Shown: positions 2,124 through 14,457 of the stretch, one piece after another
How the letters are laid out: the number at the start of each line of letters is the position of its first letter
Position numbering within the stretch: the first letter of the stretch is position 1
Virus record (IMG/VR): IMGVR_UViG_3300035698_001898
Span: 1-21,525 of that record
Source: a virus
Length of the DNA: 21,525 nucleotides
Direction: 5' to 3' (one strand)
Program-made: the position numbers and the translations under genes
Notes under the pieces: model-generated
Told to the model about the DNA's origin: nothing
The model's database searches: none
Seen by the model: only the letters and a program-made list of their open reading frames with translations

Positions 2124-4058
2124 TTATATTTTGCAACTCAAAACAGTTATCTGAAAACCGTTATCTTGGTTATTCCCATTATGATCAGTGATTTGAACAG
2201 TCCAGCAGCTATTTACACCATCATATATTACCCTTAGCATCGCAGGAGTCCCTAATAAAGTTATTAAAAAGATTACATCATCCGGTGAATAATGTGGATA
2301 ACAAACTGACGCTTCAAAATAATGAGGCGGCTTTATTTGATAAATGCCAGTAGCGCTTTTTCTAGAATACCAGTTATTATACTCGCCGGTTACGGATACG
2401 GGAAAAGCCATACCAGCTTTATAAATAACAGCTTGACTTACTCCGTCAATATCTTCTGCTAATTCCCTGGAAATCGCGCTTGTACTAGCGTTAGCGCTCG
2501 ATGTGATGTTTACCGAGAACGACGCCAAACACCATGTTATTGTATCCGCTAAAAGCGGTTTAGTTATTGCTTCATTGGGCAAATCATGAGTACCATCGGT
2601 GTTATGTTCCTTTGTTTCAATTTCACCGATCCACCCGACATCAGGAGACGAAAAAACTTTTTTGACTACATTTGATATGGATACAGAATCAACGTTAGAA
2701 TTTAAAAACTCTAGCGGCCCCACTCCCGTTGATTCGATTCTTAGTGCATCAAGATTAACTTTAAGTCTGTGAATAATCCAATTTTCGTTGATCCCATAAT
2801 GTACCCCGTTTGTCTGCATTGCAGCGGTACTAAATGCGCCCAATACGCCACTATTTACATTAACGTTGTCAAGCGTTATTCCATCATTATCATATAAAAA
2901 CATTATGCCGGTTTTGGCAGTTGCTAAGGTGGTTGCATAAATGTTTACATTTTCAAGGTTACAATTGCTAGTGTTTCCAAAAAGAACAACGCCGCTTGTC
3001 GTTGTTTGATGTGCAGTTATTCTATCGGCGTATATTTCAGCATTTTGCAACGTTGCATTTACTATCGTTACATCAAGATTAACCGCCAGGTCCGTTATGC
3101 AAGCACAGTCTGAATTATCAACGTTGACCAATTTGCAAGCAGTAGCACTTTTTAAAGTATCGATCTTGTATGTATTGCCGGCGTTCGCACCACTATTAAA
3201 CGTAACCAACGAACCAACGCCGCTATCGTATAAATCGGCACCTGCAATTGTTAGCTCGTTTGAGTTATCAATTGACCCGATAACTGAATTAAGGCCGCAA
3301 ATAGAAAACATATCTCCTAATTGGTTTGATTTTAAATCACCAACTTTTAAATATGTTCCCTTACAATTTAAAGTTACATTAGATGGAATTTTTAGATTAA
3401 CGGGGGTTTCGTCGTAAAACTGAAAACCAGTTAAATCATAAGTACCGCCACCGGCTTGATTTAATTTTGACAAATCAAGCTGAAGTTGCAAATAATATTT
3501 TTCATCGCTCGTTACAAGATACATTTTTTGCAGAGTATAAACTGCACTTATATCAATGCAACAATAAGCCAAAACTGATTGCGTATCACGGTCAAAAACC
3601 GGATTAGTTAAAATGTTTTCGATATAATCAAAATCAGGGTCTAGCGAAGTTGAGTCAAGGTTTAAAACGATTGCATCCCACCGATAATAGAGCGAAGCGA
3701 CATTTGGACTAGGACAAGTTAAATTAAAATCAACGCTTATTGAGTTGACGTTAACCCGCTGCCCGCTTGCCGCAAAATAGCTTCCAGGCGCAACGGTATA
3801 TAATCCAGCAGCAGATCCCAACGAAACGGCAAGGCCCGAAATAACACCGCTTACAACATCCTCTAATAGATAATCATAAAACTCTAACCATTCGCCGGTA
3901 AACCGCTGAATGAAGTTCATAAATTCATACGGCGGTTCCTCGACTATCCATCCCGCTGCTATTTTACCTAGCGGGGGCACTTCAATTTCGACCCCTACCG
4001 TTCCGGCAGTACACCAAAACGGGTAGTAATCAGGGCGTTCGATATAAGGAAAACTCAT
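2124..4058 (-). CDS. Tail fibre / tailspike with predicted beta-helix
   Basis: The 644-residue protein opens with a baseplate-attachment segment typical of phage fibres: PFWCTAGTVGVE (13-24), GWIVEEPPYEFMNFI (36-50) and GEWLEFYDYLL. A beta-rich region follows, and from about 205 to 465 there are short Asn-, Thr- and Val-rich strands of similar spacing (for example NLENVNIYATT and ITLDNVNVNSG), as in right-handed beta-helix tailspikes. Residues 480-495 (ETKEHNTDGTHDLP) resemble the H-x-x-DGTH hinge common in fibre stalks, and about 505-644 forms a distinct C-terminal domain that probably binds the receptor. An RBS (AGAGG) precedes the ATG, and the gene follows the DUF2612-like baseplate protein, as expected. 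Known of such proteins: host recognition, sometimes glycan cleavage. No catalytic residues can be named, so enzymatic activity is open. No separate fibre-assembly chaperone gene is seen next to it. Confidence 0.75.
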   Translation of the reverse strand: MSFPYIERPDYYPFWCTAGTVGVEIEVPPLGKIAAGWIVEEPPYEFMNFIQRFTGEWLEFYDYLLEDVVSGVISGLAVSLGSAAGLYTVAPGSYFAASGQRVNVNSISVDFNLTCPSPNVASLYYRWDAIVLNLDSTSLDPDFDYIENILTNPVFDRDTQSVLAYCCIDISAVYTLQKMYLVTSDEKYYLQLQLDLSKLNQAGGGTYDLTGFQFYDETPVNLKIPSNVTLNCKGTYLKVGDLKSNQLGDMFSICGLNSVIGSIDNSNELTIAGADLYDSGVGSLVTFNSGANAGNTYKIDTLKSATACKLVNVDNSDCACITDLAVNLDVTIVNATLQNAEIYADRITAHQTTTSGVVLFGNTSNCNLENVNIYATTLATAKTGIMFLYDNDGITLDNVNVNSGVLGAFSTAAMQTNGVHYGINENWIIHRLKVNLDALRIESTGVGPLEFLNSNVDSVSISNVVKKVFSSPDVGWIGEIETKEHNTDGTHDLPNEAITKPLLADTITWCLASFSVNITSSANASTSAISRELAEDIDGVSQAVIYKAGMAFPVSVTGEYNNWYSRKSATGIYQIKPPHYFEASVCYPHYSPDDVIFLITLLGTPAMLRVIYDGVNSCWTVQITDHNGNNQDNGFQITVLSCKI

Positions 4059-4067
4059 ATTAAACCT

Positions 4068-4655
4068 CTATAAAATATAAGCGAAAATTCCGCCTATTCC
4101 GGTTAATCCATATTCGCCAAAACCAGTTGTTGAACCAACAACATGATGACTCACTGAACTAAATCTAAAAGCCCCGCTTGCGGCTATTATAACATATAAT
4201 TTAATTCCGCCGCCCTTTGTTTTTTGCATCAATTCCTTAACTAAAGACTTCGATAATGTCGGCGCGGTATTAGCAGTTAAGATAACACTTGCGGGGAAGT
4301 ATTCTCTATTTAAAACAGCGGTCGATTTTGTCAATGCTTTTAAGACAGCATTCAATCTATCGCCTTCACCCTTTGATCTTAGAACAGTTACAACAACTAA
4401 TAACGTAGTTTTATAATCAGCATCGCTTAACCCATTGCGAGCAAAGCCAAGAAGATTCCCATAAATATCATCTATGTTTATTCCCTCGATATCGTCAAGC
4501 CGAACACCTTCAATTAAATCATAAATTATATCTTCTAATTCCTGCGAACGATTAGCGAAAATCTCAACTGTTTGTAGAAATTTAGGTTTATCTTTAAACG
4601 GAGTTGTTACCCGTTTTTTTGCATCTATGACATGAGTTATTATTTTATCAGTCAT
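4068..4655 (-). CDS. Baseplate to fibre connector, DUF2612-like (gpI position)
   Basis: The 195-residue protein resembles the DUF2612 group of phage structural proteins that occupy the place of P2 gpI between baseplate J and the fibre. Seen: an N-terminal helical part with QELEDIIYDLIEG, a GINIDDIYGNLLGFARNGLSDADYK stretch typical of the family, then a helix (GEGDRLNAVLKALTK) and a C-terminal beta region rich in glycine (VVGSTTGFGEYGLTGIGGIF). It starts right after the baseplate J stop with the junction TAAATG. The likely role is joining the fibre to the wedge. Length and order support the call; the partner contacts are inferred. Confidence 0.75.
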   Translation of the reverse strand: MTDKIITHVIDAKKRVTTPFKDKPKFLQTVEIFANRSQELEDIIYDLIEGVRLDDIEGINIDDIYGNLLGFARNGLSDADYKTTLLVVVTVLRSKGEGDRLNAVLKALTKSTAVLNREYFPASVILTANTAPTLSKSLVKELMQKTKGGGIKLYVIIAASGAFRFSSVSHHVVGSTTGFGEYGLTGIGGIFAYIL

Positions 4656-6113
4656 TTAAACAGTTCCGTCTATTTCGACAGTTATCCGGCTTGAATCAAA
4701 TTTAAACTGTTGATAGGATAAGCAGGAAATATTAACAACCCCTAACGCGGGATAAGTCAACCCGGTAAGAACCGCGTTCAATGTCCATATGCCAGATGTT
4801 AAATTAATCGGGGTACTGTAATCATGAAGCAATAAAGCTTTTCCAATTTCTTGAATAATCAACGAGTGAACAATAATGTTATTGGCAATATCAATTTGAT
4901 TTCCAGTTGCGGAAACCGTAGAATCTAAAGTTACGTTTAAACCATTTGCGGATGCAAATTCATAGCCAGCATACAACGATTCGATCTTTAATGTTGAGCC
5001 TACAATGCTAGGTGCTATCGGCATATTCGCGGCAAGATTTATAACGTTAATTAGTCCATTAACAATTTCGCTAGCAGTTGCAGCCGCGCTAGATGTATAT
5101 GAGTAAGTAACCCCATTTATTTCAATCGTATATGTGAATAAGTTAGCGACGGTGAAGCCATAAATATTTACTTGCTTTGTTCCCTGATTAAAATCAGCGG
5201 TAACAGTTAGTTTAACATGCATCCAGATATCTAAATCTTGCGGTCGATCATAATAAATATTATGATCATTTAATTCATTGTCGGTTACTACTGTTAAATC
5301 ACTTCCGTAAGTCTGGATTCCACTTGCCTTTGCTTCCCATATCATCGACGCGACGGCTTCATCTAATCCGCCGCGCACAATACAATGCACGGAATGAGGC
5401 GGACGGCCTTCGCTGTCAATAGAATCAGTCTCGTTTTCGATTACTAAACAATCGGTAACATTTGCAACATCATCCAACAATCTAGACTGTAATGCCGGAG
5501 TTGTCCCGGCTCCAATTACTTGTAAACTTTCAAGGCGTCTTACCCTCAGATCGCCGTCCGATTCGATTACATCCCCTAATTCTTCATCAGCCGTATTAAC
5601 AATTGAGGTCCAACCGCTAACCGTTGACATTTTTTGAGATAGCTTGCCAAGAGGCGCATGAACTTTCCCGGAATTTAAAGCGGTCCAAGTATCGTTAATA
5701 ATCCCGGATACGGGGAAATGTTGAAAAGTTGTACTTCTGAATATATCACCTGTACCAATAACCGCCGCCCTTGTCCCTACCGGAACAATTGTACCAGATA
5801 TCCCGGTTAAAGTAACTGGCACGGTCGAATAACTAGCGGGGTGCCTTTGAATCAAAAGAAGATTGCAAATGTTATCAAGAGATAATCCAACAGAATTATT
5901 TGGATTAAGTGAATCATATAAATCCTGGAGCAACTCCCACAACAAAGATTCTCTTTCTGCCAAGATTGAAATCAATTGGCCTAATGCGGAATCTGCTGTT
6001 GTGATAATTGTTTCGCCAAAAATAGGCGATGCTTCAAACGCTAATGCGATTTCTGCATTTATTTCTTGCAAGGTTTTTCTAGTAAATCCATTCGCAGTTA
6101 ATCCATAAGTCAT
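4656..6113 (-). CDS. Baseplate J-like (gp47-type) wedge protein with an inserted module
   Basis: The 485-residue protein has the baseplate J layout. The N-terminal helix region carries LGQLISILAERESLLWELLQDLYDSLNP (44-71). A beta domain with TVPVTLTGISGTIVPVGTRA follows, then GDLRVRRLESL (187-197), the conserved segment before the C-terminal domain, and DEAVASMIWEAKASGIQTYGS (251-271). The C-terminal domain appears split: KLTVTADF (301-308) and NIIVHSLIIQEIGKALL (412-428) should be nearly adjacent, but about 100 residues lie between them. That insert (TYTIEINGVTYSYTSSA and onward) resembles segments in the sheath and in the neck protein at 13663-14457. The protein forms wedges around the central hub and transmits the contraction signal. 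It is coupled to the gp25-like gene by a TAAATG junction. Confidence 0.9.
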   Translation of the reverse strand: MTYGLTANGFTRKTLQEINAEIALAFEASPIFGETIITTADSALGQLISILAERESLLWELLQDLYDSLNPNNSVGLSLDNICNLLLIQRHPASYSTVPVTLTGISGTIVPVGTRAAVIGTGDIFRSTTFQHFPVSGIINDTWTALNSGKVHAPLGKLSQKMSTVSGWTSIVNTADEELGDVIESDGDLRVRRLESLQVIGAGTTPALQSRLLDDVANVTDCLVIENETDSIDSEGRPPHSVHCIVRGGLDEAVASMIWEAKASGIQTYGSDLTVVTDNELNDHNIYYDRPQDLDIWMHVKLTVTADFNQGTKQVNIYGFTVANLFTYTIEINGVTYSYTSSAAATASEIVNGLINVINLAANMPIAPSIVGSTLKIESLYAGYEFASANGLNVTLDSTVSATGNQIDIANNIIVHSLIIQEIGKALLLHDYSTPINLTSGIWTLNAVLTGLTYPALGVVNISCLSYQQFKFDSSRITVEIDGTV

Positions 6114-6476
6114 TTAAAAGACCTCTGTAATTGAGACTATTTCATCGGTACTTGTCAAGCAACTAAATGAAACTGTTAGCTCTCTACTTTCATCATCGAT
6201 AGAATAATCAATATCATCATTTAATTTAATAATTCCAGGACAACTTAAAATAGTTGAAACAAAGGCTGCGTTAATCACGACCATATTTAAAAAACTATTT
6301 CCTAGAATATATTGATAATACGGAGTCCCGAATTTTACATCTAAAAACCATTCTCCCATGAATGTTTTAAGCCGAATTAAGAGCCGTTGCCTAATAACGT
6401 CTGTACCTTCAATGATGGATAATCCGCCGTCATCGAAGGACAAATCACCGCCTAAATCTAATCCTAAATCTTTCAT
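6114..6476 (-). CDS. gp25-like baseplate wedge protein (gpW/gp25, DUF2634-like)
   Basis: The product is 120 residues from the ATG at 6476. That start is preferred to an upstream one at 6503 because it overlaps the previous stop as ATGA and has AGGA five bases upstream. Family features are LDLGGDLSFDDGGLSIIEGTD near the start, VIRQRLLIRLKTFMGEWFLD (the conserved Arg and Glu-Trp segment of gp25 and gpW baseplate proteins) and GTPYYQYILG. Proteins of this family are lysozyme-fold-free homologues of T4 gp25 that nucleate sheath assembly on the baseplate. Its place between spike and baseplate J matches many contractile phages and related injection systems. Confidence 0.85.
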   Translation of the reverse strand: MKDLGLDLGGDLSFDDGGLSIIEGTDVIRQRLLIRLKTFMGEWFLDVKFGTPYYQYILGNSFLNMVVINAAFVSTILSCPGIIKLNDDIDYSIDDESRELTVSFSCLTSTDEIVSITEVF

Positions 6477-7282
6477 CCAATTCCTACTGTATCTGATAAA
6501 CACGCAGTTAGCAAGGCAGTTAATGTTGTAATATCCCCAGGAGTCGCCGTTCCTGCGTTAACCCATGCCGCAACTGTTGCGATTATTGTATCAATAAAAA
6601 CCTTTGTGTCCTTAATTGCCATTGTGTCGCCGCCAACAACAGACTCAGCAGTTGCGCCAACTCCCACCATTCCGCCAATTAGGGATAGCGGCATATCTGC
6701 GTTGATAACGATTGAATCACCGCTAACGGCCACACTCGGCGCTGTTACGTTAACCGCTGCATTGCTTTCAATTGCAATATTTCCAGTTTTGTCTATCGTT
6801 ATTACACCATGATTTGATTCGCTGGTAAAACCAACTTGCAACTTATTTTCATACTTTGATAACGGTGGAAACAAAAACGGGAAAATTCCAGGAATTGCAA
6901 TCGTATCGTTTAAGTTATTGCTTCTTGTATCGCCACTATCGACCGGATCAATATTAGCATTGTTTAAAAATGAATCAATTGATCTGTCAGTAACTAGTAG
7001 CAAAACCATGTCATCAATTGCGACCGGCAAACTAATATAAAAATTCGTAGTTCTAAAAGTAAAGACCGGGATGCTAAATAATATCGGTAAATCTTGCGCC
7101 TTTGGAATGTTGCCAGTTGGCAAAATTTCTTTTATCAAAGGTTGAATATTCACCGTACCATCATCATTAACAGCGGTTATTTTCCCAACGGTTGCCGTTC
7201 GTACATTCTTAATAGCTCGCAAAATAGCTATCTCTATTAAGCCCGCTATCGATGAACTATTTTTTTGAACCGTTTGACTCAT
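6473..7282 (-). CDS. gp138-like baseplate spike / puncturing protein
   Basis: The 269-residue protein begins with a short helical segment and then an OB-fold-like N-terminal domain (TATVGKITAVNDDGTVNIQP, 29-48, and PVAIDDMVLLLVTDRS), as in gp138-type spikes. The later part is a string of short beta strands (GVITIDKTGNIAIESNAAVNV, then SVAVSGDSIVI), consistent with a trimeric beta-helix needle, and ends in a helical or glycine-rich tail. The role is the central spike at the tip of the tube that pierces the envelope. No metal-binding HxH tip motif is obvious. It is joined to the hub gene by TAATG and to the gp25-like gene by ATGA. Confidence 0.8.
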   Translation of the reverse strand: MSQTVQKNSSSIAGLIEIAILRAIKNVRTATVGKITAVNDDGTVNIQPLIKEILPTGNIPKAQDLPILFSIPVFTFRTTNFYISLPVAIDDMVLLLVTDRSIDSFLNNANIDPVDSGDTRSNNLNDTIAIPGIFPFLFPPLSKYENKLQVGFTSESNHGVITIDKTGNIAIESNAAVNVTAPSVAVSGDSIVINADMPLSLIGGMVGVGATAESVVGGDTMAIKDTKVFIDTIIATVAAWVNAGTATPGDITTLTALLTACLSDTVGIG

Positions 7283-8241
7283 TATGCCGTTCCGTAGTTA
7301 TCAAATAATGGAAATTCAAGCAAACCATAAGGATTATCACAAGTGCATTTTGTGTACCAATCGTTGCCATTAGTATCACCTGAGATAACTGCTTTGATTA
7401 TTCGATATTTTCCCATAGTATTTAGCGATTTTACATTGACACCAACAAGCGGTTTTAATTTTGGATTTAACAATGTTGTAAACTCACAACCGCCATTATC
7501 TAATAACTCAACTTCCCCGATTAATCCAGTTGAATTATTTACCTCAATTGGAAAATCGCCGTTATCACCATTAACTGAAAAAACATCAACCATTGAATTA
7601 TCTATTGTCCATAATAACCCAAATCGAGCGCAAATGTTATTTAAATTTTCAGCGGTTAAACCAAATACCGCTGTCGGTCGATTGTATCCAGAGAATGGAA
7701 TTTCGGGAGTTATTGTACCTGGAAGTTGGCTAGTTGCAAGTCCAAGATTCAACCCTAATTTATAAGCAATCGACGACGATAAAAATAACTGTTTGCCATG
7801 TAATTTGCTTTTACGACGATTAACAAATTGGCCGGTAAGCGCGGAAAAAAGAGAATTTATTATCACCGAACCGTTATCATCTTTTGGAGAAGTCCCGTTG
7901 AAGGTTGACTCTGTGTAGGCTATAACACCATCCGCCGCGTTGATTTTAGTGGCACGATCAACCCCGCTTTTTGCCGCTTTCGCCGATGTAATATCACCGC
8001 TTGCAAAAACCTCTAGTTCGGTTTTTCCGTAGCTTGCCGACAAAGAAATGGTATCGCCATAAAGTTGAATCTTATTTATATTATCTTTACTTAAGTTAAA
8101 TATTTCGACTTCTATAATATCCGGGCTGGATTCGGCGGTTTTTTCGCAACTGAAACGAGTATGCAGCCCGGTTAAATCAAGAGGGGGCTTGTTGCCTTGA
8201 TCAACCTTTATTTCGAAATTTCTATTAAATAAAAATGCCAT
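7282..8241 (-). CDS. Baseplate hub protein (gp27/gpD-like position)
   Basis: The 319-residue protein is beta-rich with repeated strand motifs such as NRNFEIKVDQGNKPPLDLTG and PDIIEVEIFNLSKDNINKI near the start, and GLTAENLNNICARFGLLWTI (193-212), a segment typical of tail hub proteins that sit on the spike. Its place between the small DUF6983-like protein and the spike is the hub position in Mu- and XkdQ-like tails. The expected role is a trimeric adaptor between tube and spike. The start overlaps nothing upstream but follows the previous stop directly (TAAATG). The family is recognised by layout and motif style; the exact subfamily is uncertain. Confidence 0.75.
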   Translation of the reverse strand: MAFLFNRNFEIKVDQGNKPPLDLTGLHTRFSCEKTAESSPDIIEVEIFNLSKDNINKIQLYGDTISLSASYGKTELEVFASGDITSAKAAKSGVDRATKINAADGVIAYTESTFNGTSPKDDNGSVIINSLFSALTGQFVNRRKSKLHGKQLFLSSSIAYKLGLNLGLATSQLPGTITPEIPFSGYNRPTAVFGLTAENLNNICARFGLLWTIDNSMVDVFSVNGDNGDFPIEVNNSTGLIGEVELLDNGGCEFTTLLNPKLKPLVGVNVKSLNTMGKYRIIKAVISGDTNGNDWYTKCTCDNPYGLLEFPLFDNYGTA

Positions 8242-8613
8242 TTATTCAACCGTTAATTCTGCGTATAATAACCTAAATCTTTTGCCATAACCCAAATTGT
8301 CCCTACTAGGATCATCGTTTTTTCCTAACGTATCGATAATAAATAATGATCCACTTGGGGAGCTAGTTGCAACATAGTTCTTATTTATCAAAACTCCGGT
8401 TAACATTCTCATCCCAGTAAAGATATCATTATTTGATCTGTCTTTTAAGTTGAGTGTCCATTGACCTAATCTTGTGTTATAATAACATTCCACATTATAG
8501 GAAACGCCACTTAACGTAACCGTTGCGGTTAAGATTGCATTTACCCACTTAAGCGGAAATTCGATTATTGCACTTTCATCGATTGTTACACTTGCACTTG
8601 AGAAAATACCCAT
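8242..8613 (-). CDS. Conserved small phage baseplate protein (DUF6983-like)
   Basis: The 123-residue protein has a pattern found in a widespread family of small myovirus tail proteins: a strand segment ending in YNTRLGQWTLNLKDRSNNDI (46-65), a GMRMLTGVLI segment and PSGSLFIIDT with NDDPSRDNLGYGKRFRLLY near the end. The likely place is the baseplate hub region between the Dit-like and hub proteins. No catalytic residues are visible. Family assignment is from memory of the pattern; the molecular role is not known to me. Confidence 0.65.
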   Translation of the reverse strand: MGIFSSASVTIDESAIIEFPLKWVNAILTATVTLSGVSYNVECYYNTRLGQWTLNLKDRSNNDIFTGMRMLTGVLINKNYVATSSPSGSLFIIDTLGKNDDPSRDNLGYGKRFRLLYAELTVE

Positions 8614-8617
8614 TTAT

Positions 8618-9262
8618 TTAATCCAAATATGAAATGCCAATTTGACCAACAAATAACGCTGCTGCAATTATTAAATCAGCGCTAGGGGGTGAAGATAAAA
8701 CCATTCCTAGCGTATATGGAAAAGCCGCTATATCTAAATCAGTCGTTCCCATACCATATTCTATCAATGTAATTTCTCGCAATTTTGCCGAAAACTGAAA
8801 CGACTTTCCAACCGCTGCATTAACCGGAACATCTAAATTTTCGATTTGCATCGAAGGAAAAAGTTTTCTTGATGTAATAACATCGAACGGCAAGCCGGTT
8901 TTCATCAAAGTTAACATCGCCTCATAAGCTAACAGCGAGGGTGAAAGTTTACCGGTCAGTTGTGTAAAAGATGATGCACCTAATGTTAACCCGGATAAAT
9001 AACTAATCGGGGAGTCTGAAACTATCCCATCAATGGATAATGCAACCGGGTTAAATTGTACGTTGTCTGAAACATCCTGAAAGTTTCCGTTTGATGTTTG
9101 CACCGGATGATTGGTTATTGTATTAGAGAATGCATGGGTTTCAGTTATTGATGCATCTAATGTTAAATAAGCTGGCATAAATAGCTGCTTAACGCTTCCG
9201 TCGGCTAGCCTATCCCGGAATTGTACGTTTGTCGGTGGATTCAAAACTAACGCTAATGACAT
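8618..9262 (-). CDS. Dit-like tail/baseplate hub protein
   Basis: The 214-residue protein carries the signature of Dit-like phage tail proteins: ITETHAFSNTITNHPVQTSNG (39-59), then NVQFNPVALSIDGIVSDSP (68-86), a beta core, and a conserved late segment (LPFDVITSRKLFPSMQIENL, then SFQFSAKLREITLIEYG). In contractile tails these proteins form a ring between tube and baseplate hub. It directly follows the tape measure, joined by TAATG at 9262, which is the usual position. The glycine- and alanine-rich C-terminus (SADLIIAAALFVGQIG) may be a short hydrophobic tail rather than a true transmembrane segment. Confidence 0.75.
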   Translation of the reverse strand: MSLALVLNPPTNVQFRDRLADGSVKQLFMPAYLTLDASITETHAFSNTITNHPVQTSNGNFQDVSDNVQFNPVALSIDGIVSDSPISYLSGLTLGASSFTQLTGKLSPSLLAYEAMLTLMKTGLPFDVITSRKLFPSMQIENLDVPVNAAVGKSFQFSAKLREITLIEYGMGTTDLDIAAFPYTLGMVLSSPPSADLIIAAALFVGQIGISYLD

Positions 9263-11097
9263 TAGGCAACCCCCAATAATCCTAATTTAATTCTAAGGTC
9301 ATTAGCGATTTTAGTAGTTATCTCATTAGCTAATGAGTCTTGATTAGCTGCAATTGTATTCACAACTGCGCTTGGATCATTGCTTGCTATAGTGTATTCG
9401 TTTTTAACATTAATTTCAAACTTATTATTTGCGCTATTTCCAGAACCGCTAGAAATCCCGCTCATATTAGGAACTAAAAAACTAGGGATAGAAGCAAACT
9501 TTTGCATAAGACCAAACATTGCCGCTTGTTCCGTTCCGGTTGTATCCGGTACGGTTGTTTCTATATCAATCTTATCTTTCAAAAACGGAATCTTGTTTTT
9601 AAGTTTTGTCAAGCCGTCTTTTATTTTTTTAATACTACCGGTTAACGTATCGCTCAAAAACTTATAAACGTATTTTGCAACGCTCTTTAAAGCGTTCTTT
9701 ACTTTTGACCAAATACCTTTAAAAAATAATCTTATCTTATCCCAATTTTTAATTATTAACGCAATTGGAAATGAGACTAAATATAACCAGTTTTTCTTTA
9801 GCCAAACAAATGCAAATCCAAATGCTTTAACAATCATTGACCAAATGAAAGCAAAGAACTTTTTGATTTCAGCCCAATGATAAACAATTAATGCAACTGG
9901 AAATGAAACAAGATATAACCAATTATCCATGATCCAAACAATTGCATTTAAAAACGCCTTTTTTGCCGACAAATAAGCACCAACAAAAAACGCTGCAATC
10001 TTATCCCAATTCTTGTAAACAAAATAAGTGATAATTCCAACAACCGCGATTATCGCAATAGGGATTAAAAACATTTGGACTTGCGCCCATAATGCCGAAA
10101 TCCCAACAAGCCGATACGCTAAAGCCAACCCCTTTAATACCTTAATAAAAAGGATTATTTTACCAATTGCGCTAACCATAAAACCAGTAGCAATTAAAAC
10201 CGGCCCAATTGCGGCCACTAGCAATCCCCATTTAACAATAGCGTCAACTGATTCTTTATCCATCCTTGACATTTTATCCGCCAAGTCGGCAAACTTCCCG
10301 ATGATTTTAGAGAAGGAATCTAAAAGCGGACCGCCTAAAACTTCGGTGATATCTGCAAATCTTTCTTTTAATTTCCGCGTTTTCATTTCCAAGCTGGCGG
10401 AGTTTTCGGCGGAAAAATTCATGACATCTTTTGCTTGACGCATAACAACGTTAAACCTGACCCTTGCCGCGGATGCAGCGTCAAGCGTTTCGACAGAACC
10501 CTTTAGGCCCATCCTCTCCCGTTCCTCTTCTAGCATCTGCGTAGTAATTGCGATTCCGTATTTATTCAACCCCTTGACACCGCCGGAAAGCGCCCTTGCG
10601 AGGATCTTACTCGCGCTGTCATCGCTCATACCTTCGTTAAACTCAGACATAGAAAAGGCGACTGTAGTTAATCCCTTTGCCATTTCGGTGGCCTCATCGC
10701 CCGCTATGCCGTAACCTTTAATCAGCGGTTGAACTGTATTCAAAACACCCTTAATTGTTCCCGTTCCCCGAACAACGCTTTTTTCAATTGAGTTAACCCA
10801 GTTGTTAACCTCGCTTGAACTATCGCCAAATAAAAACTTAAATTTTCGATTGGTAAAATCAAGACTAGCTGCGGCTTTTAATGAAATTGCAGCTAATGCC
10901 ATAATTGGCGCGGTAACACCAGCGGAAAATCCCTTGCCGACTGACTTTAATTTGGCTCCCACTTTTTCAAATTTTGCGGCAACTACATCGGCTTTATTTT
11001 GTAGTTTGCCAAATTCTTTGTCCACAGATTTTAACTTATTTTCGTCAACATCAAATCCCCACTTAGTGACTAAATCAGATATCGTAAAACTTGCCAT
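9262..11097 (-). CDS. Tail tape measure protein
   Basis: The 611-residue protein has the usual tape-measure layout. There is a short N-terminal domain, a heptad-rich stretch at about 17-55 and an Ala/Gly-rich segment at 60-80. A conserved central part contains GVKGLNKYGIAITTQM (173-188), and hydrophobic helices lie at about 288-360. Residues 364, 408 and 452 are tryptophans exactly 44 residues apart within three copies of a repeat. A basic C-terminal region (about 460-515) and a low-complexity tail follow. It sits directly after the tail-assembly chaperone pair, as expected. Known of the family: the protein fills the tail tube, sets tail length and is ejected first. At about 1.5 angstrom per residue, 611 residues would correspond to a tail near 90 nm (inference). 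No lytic enzyme domain is recognised. Confidence 0.9.
   Translation of the reverse strand: MASFTISDLVTKWGFDVDENKLKSVDKEFGKLQNKADVVAAKFEKVGAKLKSVGKGFSAGVTAPIMALAAISLKAAASLDFTNRKFKFLFGDSSSEVNNWVNSIEKSVVRGTGTIKGVLNTVQPLIKGYGIAGDEATEMAKGLTTVAFSMSEFNEGMSDDSASKILARALSGGVKGLNKYGIAITTQMLEEERERMGLKGSVETLDAASAARVRFNVVMRQAKDVMNFSAENSASLEMKTRKLKERFADITEVLGGPLLDSFSKIIGKFADLADKMSRMDKESVDAIVKWGLLVAAIGPVLIATGFMVSAIGKIILFIKVLKGLALAYRLVGISALWAQVQMFLIPIAIIAVVGIITYFVYKNWDKIAAFFVGAYLSAKKAFLNAIVWIMDNWLYLVSFPVALIVYHWAEIKKFFAFIWSMIVKAFGFAFVWLKKNWLYLVSFPIALIIKNWDKIRLFFKGIWSKVKNALKSVAKYVYKFLSDTLTGSIKKIKDGLTKLKNKIPFLKDKIDIETTVPDTTGTEQAAMFGLMQKFASIPSFLVPNMSGISSGSGNSANNKFEINVKNEYTIASNDPSAVVNTIAANQDSLANEITTKIANDLRIKLGLLGVA
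9688..10050 (-). repeat. Three tandem 44-residue repeats inside the tape measure
   Basis: The last two copies are very similar: NWLYLVSFPVALIVYHWAEI and NWLYLVSFPIALIIKNWDKI are 44 residues (132 bases) apart. An older degenerate copy precedes them, ending in YKNWDKIAAFF. Each unit has a hydrophobic strand or helix, then W-x-x-I-x-x-FF and an aromatic-basic helix. At DNA level the similarity is clear between about 9755 and 9795 and between 9887 and 9927. This looks like a recent duplication that could lengthen the tail. Confidence 0.8.
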
Positions 11098-11098
11098 A

Positions 11099-11359
11099 TT
11101 AAAAACCCGCCGCTATTTGTTTAATCGCCTCTGCTTTTTGAGACTCCTTAAAGTCTAACAATGCATTTGCCGTAAAAATTTCTTGTATTGTCATTTTTTC
11201 AAGTTCGCTTAACGAGCAATATCTACTTAACCACAATCGCCATAGAGGTAACAACCCATCGGTTACTACCTCTTGAGGTATTTCTTTAGGTATTTCAAAA
11301 CTTGCATTTATTCCGCTTCTTTTTCCTCCGGTTGGATTTGTGAAATACCCTCGAAAAAA
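11099..11359 (-). CDS. Tail-assembly chaperone, frameshift extension (T part of a G/GT pair)
   Basis: This frame has no convincing start of its own: the only nearby start is a TTG at 11386, and no ribosome site serves it. It is best read as the extension of the chaperone gene after a -1 shift at 11359-11353. The fused product would be 125 residues of the first frame plus 84 of this one, 209 in total. After the shift the sequence reads RGYFTNPTGGKRSG, then a helical region (DGLLPLWRLWLSRYCSL, SELEKMTIQEIFTANALLDF) and ends two bases before the tape measure. Known of the family: the long form carries a T domain that binds tape measure and tube subunits. The W/Y-rich helical character and the position fit. 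The Mu-like arrangement of overlapping frames supports the call. Confidence 0.8.
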   Translation of the reverse strand, partial: FFRGYFTNPTGGKRSGINASFEIPKEIPQEVVTDGLLPLWRLWLSRYCSLSELEKMTIQEIFTANALLDFKESQKAEAIKQIAAGF

Positions 11360-11727
11360 TCCGCGTAGTTTTCCTCCAATACCCAAAGAACAACCTTAAA
11401 CATATGCAACAATTTTCCTTGAAAAAGAATATCAAAATTCTTGACAACTTGTGTATTATTACAAGTCGTGTTTTCAAGGATTTCCTTAATCAACTTGTCG
11501 ATAAAAACAGGCTCGAAATTATCGGATAGTTTAGAAATAATATCCCCAATTTCGATATTTTTAAATGCATCGGTTAGGCTGGAAACATCCGCCCCTTTTA
11601 GTCCATTTCCGATTGACGATGAACACACCTTGACAAGCCTCGTAAAAATACGAAGTGATTTTGTCCCGGTAAAAATCGAAGTTTCATACTCGGTATTATT
11701 AATGGTCGTATTTCTGGTAAGGTCCAT
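11308..11727 (-). CDS. Tail-assembly chaperone, short form (G protein)
   Basis: The 139-residue protein lies between tail tube and tape measure, the standard place of the lambda G-like chaperone. The N-terminal part is beta-like (MDLTRNTTINNTEYETSIFTG), with helices at about 40-110 (VSSLTDAFKNIEIGDIISKLS; EPVFIDKLIKEILEN). The last 14 residues after the slip site (ending QPEEKEAE) are acidic and unique to the short form. AGGGA upstream of the ATG is the ribosome site. The frame overlaps the second frame by about 50 bases after the slip, and the slippery heptamer sits in the correct phase. The role is to keep the tape measure soluble during tube assembly; it is not expected in the mature virion. 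Confidence 0.8.
   Translation of the reverse strand: MDLTRNTTINNTEYETSIFTGTKSLRIFTRLVKVCSSSIGNGLKGADVSSLTDAFKNIEIGDIISKLSDNFEPVFIDKLIKEILENTTCNNTQVVKNFDILFQGKLLHMFKVVLWVLEENYADFFEGISQIQPEEKEAE
11353..11377 (-). promoter_or_regulatory. Programmed -1 ribosomal frameshift site with internal Shine-Dalgarno stimulator
   Basis: T TTT TTC at 11359-11353 is a canonical X XXY YYZ slippery heptamer, and its first T is the third base of a zero-frame codon, the phase needed for a -1 shift. GGAGG lies at 11377-11373, leaving 13 nt to the heptamer, the range in which an internal Shine-Dalgarno promotes -1 frameshifting (as in dnaX). No strong downstream hairpin was found by eye. Confidence 0.8.
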
Positions 11728-11741
11728 TTTGTTATTTTCCC

Positions 11742-12185
11742 TTATGCGCTGTAATTAACAGCTGAGTTACTTCCAGCCGGGAAAAGGTCAAGTGCAGGGG
11801 CCAGTAACCGCCAAATAACACTTCCAACATCCTTGCCCCTTTCATCGTCCGGGATTTTTTCAATAAAACATTGTGCGGCTTGATGCACGGAATTTCCCCC
11901 GTTATCTTTTATCAAGCATGGGATAATCCCCGCCCCCGTTTGTTCGTCTGCGATTGCGACCGCTGAAAGGTAAGCGTTATCGTCAGAAGTTTGCATTAAA
12001 GTAACTTCAATAAAGCCACTTTTATCATTCTGCCTGGCTCTTGCACCTTCACCACTTGCACCGATTAACATTGTCCAAGCAACGGCGTTTCTTCCGACTT
12101 TGATAAAAGTACCATCGGCAAACCCACTTAAAGCCTTCGTTCCAACTATGATTTTAAATTTTTTAGGATCATACTCTTTAAGCAT
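11742..12185 (-). CDS. Tail tube protein (DUF3277-like)
   Basis: The 147-residue protein matches the tube family seen with DUF3383 sheaths. It opens with YDPKKFKIIVGTKALSGFADGTFI (5-28), then VGRNAVAWTMLIGASGEGARARQNDKSGFIEVTLMQTS, the conserved ADEQTG-x-x-IIPCLIKDNGGN part and a C-terminal IEKIPDDERGKDVGSVIWRLL. AAGGAG precedes the ATG by 7-8 bases. It polymerises into the inner tube through which DNA passes. It stands between sheath and chaperone genes, the standard order. Confidence 0.9.
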   Translation of the reverse strand: MLKEYDPKKFKIIVGTKALSGFADGTFIKVGRNAVAWTMLIGASGEGARARQNDKSGFIEVTLMQTSDDNAYLSAVAIADEQTGAGIIPCLIKDNGGNSVHQAAQCFIEKIPDDERGKDVGSVIWRLLAPALDLFPAGSNSAVNYSA

Positions 12186-12209
12186 ATCTTAACTCCTTAA
12201 AGTTATTTG

Positions 12210-13661
12210 TTACACTGTTACCCGTCCGGCTACATAAACGGCATGGACAGCCCCTGCGAGCCGTGCCTGAAAAGTGATCTCCTTAAGATATCGATTTCCG
12301 CGATCTGTTACATCGGTTTCACCAACCAACGGAACAATCACCTGAAATCCCTGGCTGCCTAAATCAGCATCAAATCGAAAGAACTTTGTGGCTAGCCCGT
12401 TTCCAAGCGCGGTCCTGATTTGCAATTCAATCAAAGAAATCCCATCGTCGTCAAACGGAACTTTATCATTTGCGACCAAAGGCGCGTAGATCTTCTCCGT
12501 CATCCGCGCAACTAACCAATCGATACCCATGATCGTATCGATAAATTCACCGCTAGCAACTTTGCCCTCGATTGTAATGTATGTGCCACCTACCTCGATA
12601 TAAGCGTTTCCGTTTTTACCGCCGGAACAGTCCGGGCCAGTACCACGCAACGTTGTATATTCGGTTGTCGTTAATGAATCAACCGGAACGCCGACTAACG
12701 TTTTAAATTTCCAAGTAGCCGTTGTTTGATCCAAATCGGTAGGCAACATTCGACCCATCCACGCAAACTCTGCGTAAGGATCGTTTTCGGATTCAACCTC
12801 GTCAACACCGTCACAATAACTAGCATCATGATGAAATACGCCAATCGATCGATCATAAGACAGCGCTTGAAGTGCACTCATAATATCATCTGTTTTTAGT
12901 GGATCAACGCAATCAGGGTTCCCGGTCGAATAGAAGAACGCCCTACCTACATCAGCCGCCTCAGTCCAAGCAGCCAGATCCATTGTTATATCGTCAACTC
13001 GATAAAGAAAACCAAATGCATACCAATTGCTATTTGCTTTTAAAATCGCCGTCAATGCTTTCGCATAAGTTTCCGTCCAAACACCATCGCCGAATATAAT
13101 AGTACCTGTAGAATCTTCTGCGGTTACACCCCAAACTGTCTCGCTAACTTTCACCTCGATGGTGAAAGCGTTGGTGACATCGACTTCATCAGATCCGTAC
13201 AATTGAGCACCGTGCAAAAAAGTCACATCAAATAACGCGGAAAAATCAACATCAGCCGCCATTAGATCGTACAATGCCTGGCCTATATCATGGACGGTAT
13301 CACCTGATAATGCTGTATATGTATAAGAAAAAGTTTCGCTGTTTATTGCAAAATCAAGAACATAAGTATTTCCCTCAATAGCGTCAGTTACCACTGCAAC
13401 CCAGGAATCAACCGCAACCGTTGCGATATAAAACAAGTCAGGTGCAATGTTGGGGGAAAAATATTTAACCGCCGACAGGTATTCTGGTGATGTAGTATCA
13501 AAATCATCTAGCACATCATCGGCATTAGAATATGGTTTAATTCGCAGGCCTTTCAAGTTATGCGTAACCGTTAGCGCCATGCCATAACCAAATGCCGCTT
13601 TAGATAAAGTGCTTGTATCCCTGCTAATTGCAACATTAACAATATCTGTTTGTTTTGACAT
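12210..13661 (-). CDS. Contractile tail sheath protein (DUF3383-like)
   Basis: The 483-residue protein begins SKQTDIVNVAISRDT and has the family's early features (GYGMALTVTH; LRIKPYSNADDVLDDF; TTSPEYLSAVKYFSPN at 57-72). Residues about 91-186 form a beta-rich segment (TYVLDFAINSETFSYTYTA onward), similar to inserts in baseplate J and a neck protein. Later segments WYAFGFLYRVDD and IGVFHHDASYCD belong to the core domain, and the C-terminal DRGNRYLKEITFQARLAGAVHAVYV is the conserved last strand region. A good RBS (AAGGAG) lies before the ATG. The role is the outer contractile tube; contraction drives the tube and spike through the envelope. The gene directly precedes the tail tube. Confidence 0.9.
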   Translation of the reverse strand: MSKQTDIVNVAISRDTSTLSKAAFGYGMALTVTHNLKGLRIKPYSNADDVLDDFDTTSPEYLSAVKYFSPNIAPDLFYIATVAVDSWVAVVTDAIEGNTYVLDFAINSETFSYTYTALSGDTVHDIGQALYDLMAADVDFSALFDVTFLHGAQLYGSDEVDVTNAFTIEVKVSETVWGVTAEDSTGTIIFGDGVWTETYAKALTAILKANSNWYAFGFLYRVDDITMDLAAWTEAADVGRAFFYSTGNPDCVDPLKTDDIMSALQALSYDRSIGVFHHDASYCDGVDEVESENDPYAEFAWMGRMLPTDLDQTTATWKFKTLVGVPVDSLTTTEYTTLRGTGPDCSGGKNGNAYIEVGGTYITIEGKVASGEFIDTIMGIDWLVARMTEKIYAPLVANDKVPFDDDGISLIELQIRTALGNGLATKFFRFDADLGSQGFQVIVPLVGETDVTDRGNRYLKEITFQARLAGAVHAVYVAGRVTV

Positions 13662-13662
13662 T

Positions 13663-14457
13663 CTATAAACTCCTTATAATAAAAGTTTTATCATTTCCAG
13701 TTATTTCAACCGCTTCTATTGAATCATTATCAACCGTATCAATCATCATTGTTGATAAATTTAATTGTAATACTAACCTAGTAGTTGCATCCGTTTCAAA
13801 AAACCCGGTCAAGTTAGTTATATCAGAGCAATTATTTATTGCAATATAATAACCCTCGCTTGATGATAATACATCAATGTATTCTGACTTGTCAAAAATA
13901 AAAAGTTGCCCTAATTTACTACTTATCGAAAAAGAATCAGCACTTAACTTTGTTGCGGTTATTGATACATAAGAAAGTGTCTCGCTATTTGCTAATGAAA
14001 CTAAGTTGTTAATAACATCTTCTATTGTGCTAATAGCTGTATAACTAATAACTTCACCATCAATCGATATGCTGTAATCTTGACCTATAACTAAATCAGT
14101 TATTTGCAAAGTCTCAACTTGCTTTGAACTTAAATCAGTACATTTATTTTCGTCAGCGGATGCCATAGTTATCTTATTAACTAAATCAAATGCATCATCC
14201 CCGAATAATTGAATGTCAACCCTAAATATAGAATCTAAACAACGTTTAAATAACATCGATTCGGACAATCTTAAAGGATTCAATTTATGAAGCGATCCAA
14301 TACTAGTCAACCATTGAATATATTTAAGGGTAACATAAGGTTCATTGGGTGCGGTTGTCGATTGATCCTGATATATGATTTTCGAATCACTTAATCCGGT
14401 TGTGGATTTAATAAAATCAAAAACCGCGTCTTGTATTGTTTTGCTGCTAGGCTGCAT
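13663..14457 (-). CDS. Neck/tail-completion protein with inserted module (LIC_12616-like)
   Basis: The 264-residue protein resembles phage neck and tail-terminator proteins of the LIC_12616 type: IQDAVFDFIKSTTGLSDSKIIYQDQ at 8-32, PNEPYVTLKYI, DSIFRVDIQLFGDDAFDLVNKI (75-96) and a C-terminal LVLQLNLSTM before a final conserved V-E-I pattern. Relatives are usually shorter. Residues about 112-201 look like an added beta-rich module (DYSISIDGEVISYTAI onward) similar to those in the sheath and baseplate J. The start overlaps the upstream gene by TAATG-type coupling at 14457. Likely role: terminator or completion protein at the head-tail joint, acting before the sheath caps. The family and role are moderately sure. 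Confidence 0.7.
   Translation of the reverse strand: MQPSSKTIQDAVFDFIKSTTGLSDSKIIYQDQSTTAPNEPYVTLKYIQWLTSIGSLHKLNPLRLSESMLFKRCLDSIFRVDIQLFGDDAFDLVNKITMASADENKCTDLSSKQVETLQITDLVIGQDYSISIDGEVISYTAISTIEDVINNLVSLANSETLSYVSITATKLSADSFSISSKLGQLFIFDKSEYIDVLSSSEGYYIAINNCSDITNLTGFFETDATTRLVLQLNLSTMMIDTVDNDSIEAVEITGNDKTFIIRSL

Follow-up and report, generated by a model that had tools for sequence, protein, structure and literature searches.

The inserts found in the baseplate wedge protein J, the tail sheath and the neck protein of one myovirus are best explained by a homologous accessory domain with a flagellin/FliD-like (FD-like) fold that serves in lateral packing or docking, a reading to which a probability of about three in four is given. 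The analysed window of 21.5 kb is a whole IMG/VR virus record and holds a minus-strand myovirus structural cluster with a Mu-type portal, a Mu F-like protein, an XkdF-like protease, a capsid protein, a collar, a terminator, a sheath, a baseplate, J and a fibre. The three host genes and the modules inserted in them are listed in Table 1. In the tape measure protein of the same cluster (9262-11097, minus strand), two near-copies of a hydrophobic stretch can be read from the translation (NWLYLVSFPVALIVYHWAEI and NWLYLVSFPIALIIKNWDKI).

Table 1. Host genes and inserted modules in the window
Feature	Position	Strand	Basis
Baseplate wedge protein J (485 aa), host of copy 1	4656..6113	-	PF04865 1.9e-9; phrog_6 baseplate wedge 4e-46
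Module copy 1, J residues 311-407	4893..5183	-	S1A profile, relatives without insert, AF2, Foldseek
Tail sheath (483 aa, DUF3383 / phrog_205), host of copy 2	12210..13661	-	PF11863 1.8e-33; phrog_205 6e-82
Module copy 2, sheath residues 86-193	13083..13406	-	S1A profile, hhalign, shorter sheaths without insert
Neck / tail terminator protein (264 aa), host of copy 3	13663..14457	-	PF23961 2e-8; AF2 core matches
Module copy 3, neck residues 112-207	13837..14124	-	S1A profile, L010 neck, necks without insert

The three copies are mutually 15-26% identical, and their full-length pairwise scores were equalled by 74 of 500 shuffles for J and sheath, by 87 for sheath and neck and by 7 for J and neck. 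A tblastn search of phages with the 90-residue J module matched nothing even at an E-value of 10, and the neck protein found no match there either. At the sequence level, pairwise alignment by itself is too weak as proof, and profiles decide. Because two of the three pairs had pairwise scores close to chance, relatives were gathered and profiles were built. The relatives comprised phage records, 80 viral loci found via the sheath and 35 prophage loci, the latter obtained from a contig search with a broader sheath alignment. A contig search with the closest sheath pair as query returned 0 loci, as did a related-locus search with J alone or with a J alignment.

The profile S1A represents the insert region of 29 sheaths, all from phages other than that of the window, and was searched against the 57 ORFs of the window. 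J (1.1e-10), the sheath (8e-5) and the neck protein (1e-3) were the top three, with the next ORF at 0.87, while the lowest E-value among 4590 reversed ORFs used as a control was 0.078. The preliminary description of this DNA had proposed the same small module in these three proteins, a claim borne out by these profile HMM searches. The matched residues (J 315-379, sheath 77-153, neck 116-168) lie inside or overlap the segments proposed there (J 308-408, sheath 91-186, neck 112-201), whose borders proved accurate to within about 10 residues. In a comparison of 113 window fragments with S1A using hhalign, six fragments overlapping the three inserts ranked on top with probabilities of 13-96%, and every remaining fragment stayed at or below 1.4%. 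Other phages show the same link between sheath and J. A profile of their J inserts matched 27 sheath ORFs, the sheath profile matched 15 of their Js with a domain E-value <= 0.01, and the two profiles aligned to each other with 98% probability (6e-14). The neck copy is the weakest of the three, with an E-value of 1e-3 and a low-confidence model.

Related sheaths, Js and necks without the segment are known at each of the three sites, which identifies the inserts as accessory and as lying outside the core of each family, as had been presumed. The window sheath matches the solved sheaths 9zdk, 9mt4 and 9cb9 by sequence and is 49% identical to the sheath of the related locus L010; paired with its L010 counterpart, its module reaches 98.8% probability to sheath inserts in hhalign. 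The segment is missing from sheaths of about 330-360 aa, among them those of Herod and of many prophages from gut and soil. Most of the longer sheaths in the set carry a lateral insert at that place, which is not always of the same type. The sheath insert is a real module, but it is a usual accessory domain of the family and no peculiarity of the window phage.

PF23961, together with a predicted core that matches the neck chains of Pam3, PhiTE, Bas63 and Sf14, identifies the neck protein as a tail terminator. With 264 residues, compared with 160-206 in its relatives, it looks long because of the module insert. Among 20 distinct aligned necks, only those of the window and of L010 carry the insert (6e-7 for the L010 neck), and the remaining 18 close up without it. 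A Pfam match of the neck protein to Fn3/Dep-1 (E-value 0.003) was below the cut-off and was not accepted as an identification.

J, which matches the wedges 9zd7, 9ndy and 9cuy in the PDB by sequence, carries its module at a site, here called site 2, between the strand ...VKLTVTADF and the helix IDIANNIIVHSL. This stretch measures 39-51 residues in 62 of 63 distinct Js and 135 in the window J. The module thus breaks a region that is otherwise continuous, in agreement with the preliminary description. Fifty-two of the 63 Js carry an insert at site 1 (residues ~125 to ~150 of the window J), about 180 residues upstream of site 2, and ten carry one at neither site. These site-1 inserts are often of the same module type as the window copy. 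The window J alone has an insert at site 2 and an empty site 1. In two further Js of about 617 aa (L063 18000-19850 and L036 17982-19829), the site-1 region spans 271 residues and resembles two stacked inserts.

For fold prediction, AF2 was given 39 aligned modules with the J copy of the window as the lead sequence. Since this alignment mixed J and sheath rows, the model partly depends on the homology claim and is not fully independent evidence for it. The core is confident, with block means of pLDDT of about 84-93 across most of residues 1-80. The elements are predicted in the order b-b-b-a-b-b-b, in which the helix bears the signature T-x3-I-x3-L and is followed by three or four strands. In a Foldseek search of the PDB, this model matched the A-1(L) sheath (E-value 7e-5, TM 0.65). 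Chains of the Bas63 baseplate 9ndy, in which wedge protein 2 is related by sequence to the window J, were matched with E-values of 7e-4 to 0.15. Further matches were found to the sheaths of PhiTE, Mu and Milano and to podovirus nozzle complexes, and weaker ones to siphophage proteins and to flagellin/FliD (0.08-0.5). Among predicted viral proteins, J-like proteins, sheaths and tail tubular proteins were matched. As modelled, the fold of the module is a flagellin/FliD-like ('FD') accessory fold. The lateral sheath domain of Adele, published in December 2025, is a seven-stranded beta-sandwich with a flanking helix and takes no direct part in contraction (PMC12846349); the model of the J copy has this fold, and the neck copy has it at low confidence. 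An Ig fold, a Greek-key sandwich that lacks a central helix, is not seen in the module, given the strand-strand-strand-helix-strand order, and no Ig family matched above the Pfam cut-off.

The neck protein was folded with neck rows only because adding module rows misaligned the neck alignment. In the resulting model, the core is good and the insert is of low confidence, with its first strands and helix in the order and spacing of the J module. Structure prediction thus unites the J module with sheath and wedge folds, and extends to the neck copy as the same element order at low confidence. An alternative is that beta-rich inserts with similar turns arose by convergence or chance and form no single family. 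This would agree with the low pairwise identity and with unaided pairwise scores near chance, and also with the type C ('FSxVP') inserts at site 1 of J, for which no kinship to the type A module was detected (hhalign 0.2-4%). It is nevertheless highly improbable, since the profile and profile-profile matches far exceed those of all other ORFs and fragments of the window, and since sheath and wedge folds are matched at once. A common ancestry of the three inserts is supported.

As to the idea that the module was copied between genes, common ancestry is clear, but recent copying within the window phage is unsupported. In a tree of 54 modules, the labels group by host protein, with 4-6 changes compared to 17-18 in shuffles and with several apparent switches. 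In AU tests, a single origin for each protein was not rejected, and neither was a grouping of the window's three copies as a clade, so that different numbers of transfers are compatible with the trees. Transfers in the distant past, with vertical inheritance inside each protein thereafter, would fit. A recent intragenomic duplication, in which two of the genes received the module from the third within the lineage of the window, would accord with a genome that holds three copies of a single type. The window J module also scores 104 with the L010 neck module and 106 with the best J module, and in 13 genomes the own J and sheath modules score slightly above mismatched ones, a difference (permutation p 0.002) that is confounded by phylogeny. 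Such a duplication is quite improbable, as the copies share just 15-26% identity and are not mutual best matches, the module tree clusters by host protein, and GC and GC3 track the host gene and give no sign of recent transfer.

Other insert types occur in the relatives. A type B family with the motif VTGGASQ was found in sheaths, terminators, collars, one J and a relative of the structural cement protein of E217/Pam3, and its kinship to the module is borderline in hhalign (67% to S1A, 0.2% to J1A). One phage fragment, L059, carries type B in a cement-like protein (326-1174), a collar (3563-4267) and a sheath (4819-6165). In L074 (9989-12142 and 17140-19116) and L078 (9992-12154), type B lies inside type A after the third strand, the hosts being both sheaths and the J of L074. 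When the B stretch was omitted in silico, the type A bit scores rose from 25 to 39 in the L074 sheath, from 21 to 51 in the L078 sheath and from 10 to 21 in the L074 J, and this gain was greater than in shifted controls in both cases that were controlled. It is tentatively suggested that the inserts may be mobile virion domains, with a few families that repeatedly occupy outward loops of many virion proteins (sheath, J, terminator, collar and a cement-like protein), may leave one site of a protein empty while filling another, as in the window J, and nest in each other at a fixed point. Separately, L068 (1551-3119) encodes an ORF of 523 aa with four tandem type C modules, whose only family match is a weak one to a cellulase Ig-like domain.

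The module is a domain of about 90 residues, set as long-diverged copies into loops of the sheath, wedge J and terminator, and each copy would lie laterally on the outside of its host protein. Its role would be non-enzymatic: it may pack against its neighbours, add bulk or stiffness to the particle, or present a docking face. Outward-pointing loops may tolerate the module, so that recombination could add, lose, move and nest it while assembly stays intact. Packing or docking is the most likely role that we infer for this homologous, inserted module. Surface exposure, as put forward in the preliminary description, agrees with the literature for the sheath copy (PMC12846349), and a similar outward orientation is inferred for the J and neck copies. 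The insertion domain of the A-1(L) wedge, of which one copy fits the hub cleft and the other holds the long tail fibre (PMC10966104), may by analogy be an example of such a docking role.

The glycan binding that had been considered for the module received no positive evidence. In the 39-row alignment, the conserved positions (Y328, T346, I350, L354 and alternating hydrophobics) are structural, and there is no conserved surface patch. The lack of a conserved patch of ligand type argues against a shared glycan-binding function, while lineage-specific ones may exist. The module evolves faster than the cores of its hosts, both in the sheath and in J. Between the window and L010 sheaths, identity is 26% in the module and 55% in the core, and module identity was below core identity in 96-100% of the sheath pairs per bin. 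In J, the corresponding values are 33% and 48%, with the same direction in 153 of 153 pairs. This fast change could reflect relaxed constraint and not a role. It could also be taken to indicate an adhesin that binds host-surface glycans weakly in many copies and spread by aiding adsorption, together with the repetition of the sheath copy over the particle surface and the proposal that Ig-like extra sheath domains aid adhesion (PMC9230969). This interpretation is unlikely because a conserved ligand-like patch is missing, the conserved residues belong to the core, and one copy sits at the neck, distant from host contact.

Both the fold and the fact that sheaths, nozzles and auxiliary capsid proteins reuse it have been published before. 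The lateral-domain fold was also described in FliD and flagellin besides nozzles and auxiliary capsid proteins (PMC12846349), the related part of the auxiliary capsid protein was named the FD domain in the crAss001 atlas (PMC10172136), extra sheath domains were surveyed (PMC9230969), and domain shuffling among phage proteins was covered (PMC10684548). The lateral domain of type-2 sheaths, as in Adele, PhiTE and Sf14 (PMC12846349, PMC9230969), shares the sheath site, homologous sequence and the fold class with the window copy, and PAK_P1-like and Felix O1-like sheaths fall within or match the module profile. Baseplate wedge J and the terminator are absent from the published list of proteins with a lateral domain, which comprises sheaths, nozzles, auxiliary capsid proteins, FliD and flagellin. 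Wedge protein 2 of Bas63 (9ndy) and the PAK_P1-like wedge 9zd7 carry a site-1 insert that belongs to the module family by profile, with a Foldseek match to 9ndy, whereas the window J leaves site 1 unoccupied and has its module some 180 residues downstream, towards the C-terminus. The gp31 wedge of cyanophage A-1(L), likened here by description, also has an insertion of about 100 residues, but at residues 81-180 and not at the C-terminal site of the window J (PMC10966104). The FD domain of crAss001, flagellin D2/D3 and FliD (PMC10172136) are alike in fold class, with weak Foldseek E-values of 0.08-0.5 for flagellin/FliD. Promiscuous Ig-like domains (Fraser et al. 2006, as cited in PMC9230969) are similar as accessory domains spread over virion proteins, whereas the window module is FD-like, with three strands, then a helix, then strands, and has no Ig fold. 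The literature text searched yielded no description of the module in a terminator, of its relocation in J or of the nesting.

Accounts of contractile-tail evolution usually describe a conserved core to which further domains, most of them Ig-like, are added. In the present case, sequence connects sheath, wedge and terminator through a single accessory domain that is not of the Ig type, and its fold extends the connection to nozzles and flagellin. The relatives present this domain in all states, namely absent, present, at another site, doubled and nested, and thereby form a natural dataset on how a domain enters obligate assembly proteins without breakage. Its reuse and relocation show how freely such domains enter the proteins of phage particles.
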